This document shows positions 1 through 14,426 of a stretch of DNA of 34,595 bases, one piece after another. Every line of letters starts with the position of its first letter. Position 1 is the stretch's first letter. The DNA comes from Fusobacteriaceae bacterium (GTDB lineage: Bacteria; Fusobacteriota; Fusobacteriia; Fusobacteriales; Fusobacteriaceae): contig JAGNSM010000006.1 of NCBI GenBank assembly GCA_017988045.1, positions 1-34,595 of the forward strand, in the 5' to 3' direction. The position numbers and the translations under genes were made by a program. The notes under the pieces were generated by a model. That model was not told where the DNA came from and did no database searches. It saw only the letters and a program-made list of their open reading frames with translations.

Positions 1-1738
1 CATAATCCATGATTTGAAGCAAAATGTTATAAATATCCGAGTGAGCTTTTTCTATTTCATCAAGAAGCAAAACTGCATGAGGATTTTTTCTGACAGCATC
101 TATAAGAAGTCCACCTTGTTCGTATCCTACATATCCTGGTGCTGTTCCGATCAGTTTGGCAACACTATGTTTTTCTTGATACTCACTCATATCATATCTG
201 ATTATAGGAATATCCATATTTTTAGAAAGTTGCTTAGCAAGTTCAGTTTTCCCTACTCCAGTTCTTCCTACAAATAACAGAGAAGCTATAGGTTTATTAT
301 CATCATTTAAACCAGCTCTGGCTCTTTTTATTGATGAAACCACTGTTTCAATTGCAGAGTTTTGACCAAAAATTACAGATTTCATACTTTCTTCCAGTTT
401 AAATAGTTTTTGAACTTCAGTTTCTTCTATTTTTTCTTCAGGAATACGAGCTAATTTAGCAATAGTTTGCTCAATTTCTTTAACTGTAATTGTAATTCTT
501 TTTTTAGATTTTTTTGTAAGCCTAATAAATGCAGCTGCTTCATCAATAAGGTCTATGGCTTTATCTGGAAGATGTCTGTCATTAATATATTTGTCTGAAA
601 GTTTACAAGCAGCTTCTAAAGCTTCATCTTCATAGTAAACTTTATGATGTTCTTCATAAGTTTTCTTTAATCCTTTAAGAATTTTTATACTATCTTCTAC
701 CGTAGGCTCCATTATTTCAATTTTCTGAAATCTTCTAGCAAAAGCTTTATCTTTTTCTATAAAATTTTTATATTCATCATAAGTTGTAGAACCCATAAAC
801 TTAATATTTTGCTCAGCAAGATATGGTTTTAATAAGTTTGAAGCGTCCATAGCACCGCTATTGTTAGCTCCTGCTCCCATCAAATTATGAATTTCATCAA
901 TATAAAGTATAACATTTTTTTCTTTTTCCACTTCATTCAGAAGTTTTTTGATTCTATCTTCAAAATCTCCTCTGTATTTTGTTCCTGCCAAAAGAGCAGC
1001 AATATCAACAGAATAGATTTTCGCATCTAAAAGAGATACAGGAACTTTCTTAGTGGCGATTAAATATGCCAGTCCTTGAGCTATTGCAGTTTTACCTACC
1101 CCAGCTTCTCCCACGTGAATAGGATTTGACTTACTTCTTCTAAGGAGTACTTCTAAAGTTCTATTTAACTCTTTTTCTCTACCTATAACAGGATCTAAAG
1201 TTTTATTAAATGCTTTTTCTGTCAAATCAACACAGAATTTTTCTATGTATGAACCGATTAATTCATCGTCTTCCTCTTCGTCGTATTCATCATAAAAATC
1301 TTCTTTTTCAATACTATCAACATTTTCATTAACAATAGAATCTAAGATACTAATTCTTCTTAATCCTTGTTTTTTAAGATAATAACTAGCATGGGTTTTA
1401 TCTTCTTCAAATATTCCAAGGAAAATATCTGTAAAATTCAGAAGTTCTTTTCCAGCAGCAGCTTTTTGAAAAGCAACAGTATTTAAAACGGCGTCTAAAA
1501 GTGCTGAATTTATTGGTTCTATACTGTTATAACTTATGTTGACATCTTTTAGATAAGTAGATAAATCATTTTTTAGTTTTAATGGGTCAATATTTAAATT
1601 TAACAAAAACTCAAAAAATCTCTTACTTTCTGTAGCTGTTAAGAGAACTAATTCAGGAGTTATATATTCGTATTTATTTTTTAGTGCCAAATCATAGGCT
1701 TTTGTAAAAATTTCGCTAGCGTCTTTATCCAGTCTCAT
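1..1738 (-). CDS. clpA: ATP-dependent Clp protease ATP-binding subunit ClpA (3' end beyond window)
   Basis: AAA+ unfoldase that pairs with ClpP and unfolds substrates, including N-degron substrates handed over by ClpS. The first 579 codons lie in the window; the reading frame runs off the left edge, so about 170 residues of a usual ClpA are missing. Residues 1-145 form the Clp N-domain. The first AAA module has Walker A GEAGVGKT at 210-217 and a Walker B ending in LYIDEIH. The second module has Walker A GRTGVGKT at 491-498 (usual form GPTGVGKT) and [10 protein letters not shown]. An acidic linker ([10 protein letters not shown]) separates the N-domain from module one. The ATG lies one base after the clpS stop, and its AGGAGG ribosome site is inside clpS, so the two are co-transcribed and probably translationally coupled. 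Identification is firm. Confidence 0.95.
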
Positions 1739-12271: not shown

Positions 12272-13576
<1,305 letters not shown>

Positions 13577-13580
13577 TTAA

Positions 13581-13644
13581 ATTAGTTAGAATTAAGAAGA
13601 TTTTTTCAATAATTACTAACTACTAATTTCTAATTCTTAATTAG
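13581..13644. repeat. AT-rich degenerate short repeat between hpt and purA
   Basis: The stretch is built from about nine copies of AATTAG/TTAGT-like 6-8 base units on either strand, with inverted pairing (TTAGTTAGAATTAAG against CTTAATTAG-like units). It overlaps the last codons of hpt. Such units make it a possible mRNA stem between the two genes. No function assigned. Confidence 0.5.
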
Positions 13645-14170
13645 TTTGCACGACTTTTCCAATAAATTTAAGGTTTCTATGTTTTTCAGCATAGTCTATA
13701 CCATAACCTACTACAAATTCATCAGGTATTTTAAATCCTATATATTTAACTGCTACTTCTACCTCTCTTCTTTCAGGTTTATCAAGGAGAGTACAGATTT
13801 CTAATGTTTTTGGTTCACGAAGTGATAATATTTCATAAACTTTTTTAAGAGTGTATCCAGTATCGATAATATCTTCTACAATCAAGACATTTTTACCTTT
13901 TATGTCATCTTCAAGGTCTTTTTTTATTTTAACATCTCTTGAGCTTGTCATAGAATTTCCATAGCTTGAAACAGTCATAAAATCAAGTTTTACATCATAA
14001 TCAGATAATTCCCTTGCCAAGTCACTTAGAAAAATTACAGAACCTCGTAGAAGCCCAACAAAAATAAGTTCATCACCTATTTTATAATCTTCCCTAATTT
14101 GTTCAGCTAGTTGGCTTACTTTGGTTTTAATTTCTTCTTCAGAAATTAGAGTTTCAACATTGTATTCCAT
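13637..14170 (-). CDS. hpt: Hypoxanthine (guanine) phosphoribosyltransferase
   Basis: Salvages hypoxanthine (and usually guanine) with PRPP to IMP/GMP. 177 residues, the typical size of bacterial HPRT. The PRPP loop is [13 protein letters not shown] at 95-107 with E99 and D100. LLRGSVIF at 40-47 is the pyrophosphate-binding loop, [15 protein letters not shown] at 68-82 the flexible catalytic loop, and [17 protein letters not shown] at the C-terminal side contacts the base. AGGAGG precedes the ATG at 14170; nine in-frame codons upstream are rejected for lack of a site. It is preceded by an intrinsic terminator 35 bases upstream on its own strand and a leader ORF, so expression likely depends on read-through. 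Confidence 0.95.
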
Positions 14171-14204: not shown

Positions 14205-14247
14205 TAAAAAAAGCCTAAGCTAAACTAAAATTAGTTTACACTTAGGC
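14205..14247 (-). terminator. Intrinsic terminator/attenuator in the hpt leader
   Basis: On the minus strand GCCTAAG, TG, TAAACTAA, TT, TTAGTTTA, G, CTTAGGC, then T7: a two-part 15-bp stem and a strong T-run. It lies 35 bases upstream of the hpt start, inside the transcript from the 14398-14426 promoter. The 5' arm is made of the last five codons of the 44-residue leader ORF. Confidence 0.85.
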
Positions 14248-14365
14248 CAGTGTTTATATAAGATAAATTATAATTATTTTTATTTAAGGGTATACAACAA
14301 AGCCCTGTACTATTTGACGTACAGCTAAACAATATTTTTTCTGTAAATAAGGAAAAAAGCTTCAT
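14231..14365 (-). CDS. 44-residue leader peptide ORF ahead of hpt
   Basis: Too short for routine calling but well supported: a promoter at 14398-14426, AGGAGG at 14371-14376, a 5-base spacer, ATG, 44 codons and TAA. The peptide begins MKLFSLFTEKILF (amphipathic) and continues with a Cys/Ser/Thr/Asn-rich part SCTSNSTGLCCIP (Cys at 15, 23 and 24), then NKNNYNLSYINTG. No family was recognised. The stop codon lies inside the terminator at 14205-14247, so a ribosome reaching it would cover the 5' arm and favour read-through into hpt. Either a translated attenuator leader or a small peptide gene in its own right (a peptide antibiotic precursor is conceivable but not shown). Confidence 0.6.
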   Translation of the reverse strand: MKLFSLFTEKILFSCTSNSTGLCCIPLNKNNYNLSYINTGLSVN

Positions 14366-14397
14366 GTTTGCCTCCTAAATATTTTATCACAAGGCTT

Positions 14398-14426
14398 ATT
14401 TTACCATAAGAATAAGTTATTTGCAA
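14398..14426 (-). promoter_or_regulatory. Promoter of the leader ORF-hpt-purA unit
   Basis: On the minus strand TTGCAA, a 17-base spacer, then TAAAAT, with transcription expected to start about 25 bases ahead of the leader ORF. Confidence 0.75.

Follow-up and report, generated by a model that had tools for sequence, protein, structure and literature searches.

The window, the 34,595-nucleotide stretch of DNA analysed here (genome G000, genus g1), carries on its minus strand hpt and purA as the first and second genes of an operon, the products of which lead from hypoxanthine through IMP to adenylosuccinate, the precursor of AMP. The features of the leader that precedes these genes are collected in Table 1, with all leader, hpt and purA coordinates referring to the minus strand of the window. 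The original prediction had placed a strong intrinsic terminator 35 bases before hpt and, ahead of it, a 44-codon open reading frame (ORF) equipped with its own promoter and AGGAGG site; each of these lies where it was placed. The ORF encodes the 44-residue peptide MKLFSLFTEKILFSCTSNSTGLCCIPLNKNNYNLSYINTGLSVN. The 5′ arm of the terminator stem (14248–14231) consists of codons 40–44 (GLSVN) and the stop codon, which bears out the further claim that the last five codons form this arm with the stop inside it. The hairpin has a predicted stability of about −18 kcal/mol and is followed by seven T residues at 14212–14206, with the ATG of hpt at 14170, 35 bases beyond the T tract. This terminator was missed by a rule-based terminator scan and is found by RNAfold. 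Likewise, promoter-type matches in the region number 10 where 13.6 are expected, such that the leader promoter match taken alone is at chance level; because it falls within the chance number, conservation is needed as support.

Table 1. Features of the hpt-purA leader and operon in the window.
Feature	Position	Strand	Remarks
Leader promoter: TTGCAA (14426–14421), 17-nt spacer, TAAAAT (14403–14398)	14398–14426	−	Hexamers and spacing recur in G001
Shine-Dalgarno sequence AGGAGG of leader ORF	14371–14376	−	AGGAGG also in G001
Leader ORF, 44 codons plus stop (TAA at 14233–14231)	14231–14365	−	37-codon homologue in G001
Mid-ORF hairpin CUGUAC-N8-GUACAG (possible pause hairpin)	14305–14324	−	Identical stem in G001, loop 3 nt shorter
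Intrinsic terminator (putative attenuator): stem 14248–14212, T tract 14212–14206	14206–14248	−	RNAfold; stem conserved in G001
hpt, hypoxanthine phosphoribosyltransferase; first operon gene (Shine-Dalgarno sequence 14180–14175)	13637–14170	−	
purA, adenylosuccinate synthetase; second operon gene	12272–13552	−	

A homologous leader is present in G001 (MAG JAFGUR010000086, Fusobacteriaceae), the sole genus-mate compared. There, hpt (82% identical to that of the window) and purA (92%) lie behind a 37-codon ORF encoding MKIFSLFLENLLFSCTNSTGLCRIYQSLNKINGLSVS, with the same terminator as in the window. The gene upstream of the leader differs between the two genomes, which indicates that the leader travels with hpt. 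When the two regions are aligned, the promoter hexamers, the Shine-Dalgarno sequence, the ORF and the stem correspond and the stretch from terminator to hpt does not; both hexamers and their 17-nt spacing are kept around a spacer of different sequence. Two indels separate the leader ORFs, of 3 and 18 nt, both in-frame. Furthermore, within the conserved parts of the ORF 6 of the 12 differing codons are synonymous, as compared to a neutral mean of 20% under random substitution (p=0.008), and the synonymous excess persists over all aligned leader codons (p=0.036). The in-frame indels and the synonymous excess support translation of the leader ORF, as read from the sequences of these two species. 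A comparison of the leader DNA with 61 relatives returned G001 as the one real homologue, the other matches being short and attributable to chance, and a search with the leader peptide in the family found no homologue beyond G001, with G084 and others matching at chance level (E near 0.1).

The architecture extends further than the peptide. In a survey of 96 genomes of the order (mostly MAGs, from one phylum), hpt-purA pairs are present in several genera, and a leader precedes them in four genomes beyond g1: G016 (genus g3), with the peptide MKILYYSTSNYLSIKKSNILTINI, and the Sebaldella-type species G092, G093 and G055, with the peptide MAEKSKMYKSVFFDNVSKPEIVLSYKQINNFI and variants of it. None of these peptides is related to the g1 peptides. 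Nonetheless, in all six leaders, from three genera, the leader stop either sits in the 5′ arm of the terminator or extends into its first paired bases. The ORFs are preceded by AGGTGG in G016 and GGTGAG in the Sebaldella-type genomes, and promoters can be discerned by eye at the same place (TTGTAT-17-TAAAAT and TTGACA/TAATAT, respectively). Thus, of the conservation that the original prediction proposed to look for, the ORF and stem are kept in G001 and the architecture is kept in two other genera, but the peptide is limited to its genus. Among the Sebaldella-type genomes the leader, from its −35 hexamer through the T tract, is nearly invariant: in the widest pair, the 99-nt leader ORF has 4 differences and 3 of its 33 third codon positions are changed, as compared to 47 of 172 (27%) in hpt. 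The segment that begins with the −35 hexamer and runs up to the leader start is identical in all three of these species (L155 at about 1270–1460, plus strand; L154; L156), a conservation exceeding that of hpt. The distance from the start of the T tract to the start of hpt varies between 30 and 46 nt among the leaders compared, with no conserved promoter in it.

The majority of the remaining hpt-purA operons in the order are without a leader. None of this kind was seen in the hpt-purA operons of g19, g20, g22, g25, g26, g27 and a Clostridia MAG, leaving aside the terminator at L165 (G057), which lies 70 nt before hpt and is the sole one flagged among these operons. Where purA is unlinked to hpt it lies downstream of another gene, and no unit of leader ORF and terminator was seen there. 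On an hpt tree the leader carriers do not form one clade and three changes are needed; this sequence-based tree fits a single gain followed by two losses as well as more than one gain.

It is informative to consider how often such an arrangement arises in these genomes. A control set of 941 kb sampled from G000 and G093 contains 61 terminators located 15–110 nt before a co-directional gene, to which we applied an automatic rule calling for a stand-alone ORF of 15–70 codons that is preceded by a Shine-Dalgarno sequence and ends in the 5′ arm of the terminator. The rule selects one of the 61, the leader of the window; one match besides is the tail of a 469-residue ORF, and none of the 59 other terminators ahead of genes in the 941 kb has a stand-alone, Shine-Dalgarno-preceded ORF ending in its stem. 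All six hpt leaders satisfy the same rule. Judged against this sequence sample, the stop-in-stem leader before hpt-purA is not a product of chance. At L238 (G000:C6, 3451–3592, plus strand), 20 nt ahead of a trpG/pabA-like gene, a terminator-like hairpin overlaps the 3′-end of a 469-residue ORF whose position is trpE/pabB-like, a further instance of a stop in a stem, here in a long gene.

Searches for other regulatory signals were negative. Upstream pairing with the 5′ arm is no better than in shuffled sequence (p 0.23–0.95), Rfam covariance models run against the leader gave no family at any useful score, the purine riboswitch included, and the leader peptides contain no run of codons for one amino acid; together these results make a trp-type switch or a known riboswitch unlikely. 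They also agree with three earlier statements on this DNA, namely that the peptide shows no run of one amino acid, that no purine-riboswitch consensus is present and that no leader peptide was known to have been described for hpt; for the last of these, a search of the CC-licensed PMC literature turned up no paper describing a leader peptide for either hpt or purA. With no upstream competitor for the 5′ arm, the ribosome is the competitor that is left. We infer that the leader is translated and that the terminator is conditional, and we think it probable that the region is an attenuator of the pyrBI kind, worked by translation of the short leader ORF and governing the salvage of hypoxanthine to AMP. 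Transcription would begin at the leader promoter. Were the polymerase to outpace the first ribosome, the hairpin of the terminator would fold and transcription would end near 14206; were the polymerase slowed in the leader, the ribosome could close up to the stop codon, where it would cover the hairpin's 5′ arm, letting the polymerase continue into hpt-purA. Read-through by a ribosome occupying the arm, as originally suggested, remains the best-supported mechanism that the sequences point to, given the stop-in-stem arrangement in six of six leaders and the lack of an antiterminator.

This mechanism has precedents in Escherichia coli, where a terminator is repressed when a ribosome occupies a stop codon within a few bases of it, and where terminators in the first ~100 bp of an ORF remain active, since the first ribosome still trails the polymerase there (PMC4824070). 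In the pyrBI operon the terminator lies inside a 135-bp leader gene and pausing restores the coupling of ribosome and polymerase (PMC4824070, PMC5021804). The leader described here likewise has a 135-bp ORF that overlaps an intrinsic terminator before an operon of nucleotide metabolism and, as in pyrBI (PMC4824070, PMC5021804), is predicted to need no antiterminator, the ribosome itself blocking the hairpin. There are also differences: the genes serve purine salvage as opposed to pyrimidine synthesis, the phylum is another, the peptide is unrelated to that of pyrL and the hpt leader has no recognised U-rich, UTP-sensing tract. Moreover, the ORF here ends inside the stem or at its base; the pyrL ORF of E. 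coli instead reads through its terminator stem. With the trp- and his-type attenuators the leader shares a peptide, a terminator before a biosynthetic operon and, in g1, a pause-like hairpin, but it lacks their codon run, their mutually exclusive antiterminator and the gap of >20 bp that separates leader stop from terminator in amino-acid attenuators (PMC4824070). By analogy, then, the geometry of the leader matches the pyrBI kind and not the trp type. The leader also resembles the purine (guanine and adenine) and other purine-related riboswitches in that purine genes stand behind a terminator in a 5′ leader, yet unlike them it has no Rfam match and is filled by an ORF.

Several other explanations should be weighed against the pyrBI-like one. 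A trp-type attenuator sensing the charged tRNA of an amino acid in the leader would account for the presence of a leader peptide and a terminator, but with no codon run, no alternative pairing and the stop inside the terminator, not >20 bp before it (PMC4824070), we regard it as scarcely credible. That the promoter, ORF and terminator form a complete set invites the idea of a stand-alone gene for a small peptide or a small RNA, with hpt served by a separate promoter. However, the leader stays with hpt-purA in G001 despite the different upstream gene, the slot is kept between genera although the peptide is not, and the variable 30–46 nt between T tract and hpt are too short for a conserved promoter and leader. 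The alternative that had accompanied the original prediction, a separate peptide gene and a hidden hpt promoter, is weakened by this lack of a conserved promoter and by the unrelated peptides found in the slot, and we consider a stand-alone gene very unlikely.

The remaining two alternatives are also improbable, if somewhat less remote. One is a switch made of RNA, either a new riboswitch or a protein-binding leader, in which the ORF would be incidental. The Sebaldella-type leaders lend this some weight, being conserved at the nucleotide level down to third codon positions, as does a leader fold that beats shuffled sequences (z −2.8), much of it owing to the terminator. But there is no Rfam match and no antiterminator pairing, reading the sequences reveals no motif common to the three lineages and every leader has an ORF led by a Shine-Dalgarno sequence with its stop in the stem, all of which leaves the RNA-based switch a slim chance. 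The other is a sensor in the nascent peptide of g1, in which the stretch FSCT(S)NSTGLC would stall the ribosome on a metabolite in the manner of TnaC or Erm leaders and so alter formation of the terminator. Conservation between the two g1 peptides is highest in this stretch, and synonymous changes lie nearby, but the residues are conserved within g1 alone, the peptides of G016 and the Sebaldella-type species at the same place being unrelated. The same nucleotides also form a hairpin, such that a constraint on the RNA accounts equally well for their conservation, and a ribosome stalled at codon 20–25 would come to rest ~45–60 nt short of the terminator, leaving it unmasked. We give such peptide sensing little credence.

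The pyrBI-like mechanism calls for a slowing of the polymerase, and the mid-ORF hairpin of g1, at about −8 kcal/mol, is a candidate site. A pause-like site of the form G−10/Y−1/G+1 (PMC9291695) lies 9 nt past this hairpin, with the RNA 3′-end at about 14296, and the consensus is kept in G001 despite a U-to-C change of the Y. Different mid-ORF hairpins occupy comparable places in G016 and the Sebaldella-type genomes; in all three lineages they are marginal against dinucleotide shuffles (each p ~0.03–0.09). In G016 the pause consensus is just 5 nt past the hairpin, and the stretch examined after the Sebaldella-type hairpin contains no Y-G site, so that g1 alone has the consensus at about the his-type distance. 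Pausing of the polymerase in the leader, in g1 perhaps at the mid-ORF hairpin, may be what does the coupling.

As to what is sensed, our guess is a low purine nucleotide pool, with ATP the natural candidate, although the composition of the leader gives this no support. Since the route from hypoxanthine to AMP runs through hpt and purA, and purB follows them in the TD116 locus (MAG TD116_bin61, matching G092), a polymerase slowed by low ATP would be a sensible signal. We hesitate to carry this to its full form, an ATP-sensing counterpart of pyrBI in three fusobacterial genera, selected as an architecture and not as a peptide, in which low ATP slows the polymerase, the ribosome masks the terminator and salvage is switched on; at present we think that unlikely. 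The composition of the A/U tract ahead of the stem was considered as the signature of a nucleotide sensor and rejected: it is above average relative to coding sequence but ordinary relative to the other terminators of the same genomes, and hence does not point to a sensor of any particular nucleotide. The leader could simply report how well translation keeps pace with transcription.

If the pyrBI-like reading is correct, attenuation by a coupled ribosome would take in purine salvage as well as pyrimidine and amino-acid operons, and would reach the phylum Fusobacteriota. Ribosome-coupled terminators are known for pyrimidine genes; for purine genes we found none described in the CC-licensed PMC literature. 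It would also follow that a leader can be conserved as geometry, a stop codon in a stem, even when its peptide is wholly replaced, so that peptide-based searches miss leaders of this sort. A search for the geometry itself (Shine-Dalgarno sequence, short ORF, stop in the terminator arm, gene) is specific, with one true match in 941 kb.

The salvage genes themselves show some variety. The genome of the window has a second hpt paralogue (G000:C98:4379–4897), 53% identical to the first, and the hpt genes of Enterovibrio, Grimontia and Yersinia (L077–L092) are closer to the hpt of the window, at 61–65%, than is this second copy. Genomes of genus g12 (L017–L023) carry two hpt genes in tandem. The purA gene is broken by several stop codons in G075 (G075:C1:314337–315610) and by one TGA in G092 (G092:C161:2493–3764), and in genus g7 a divergent purA, about 45% identical, is the only one in six of the seven genomes examined.
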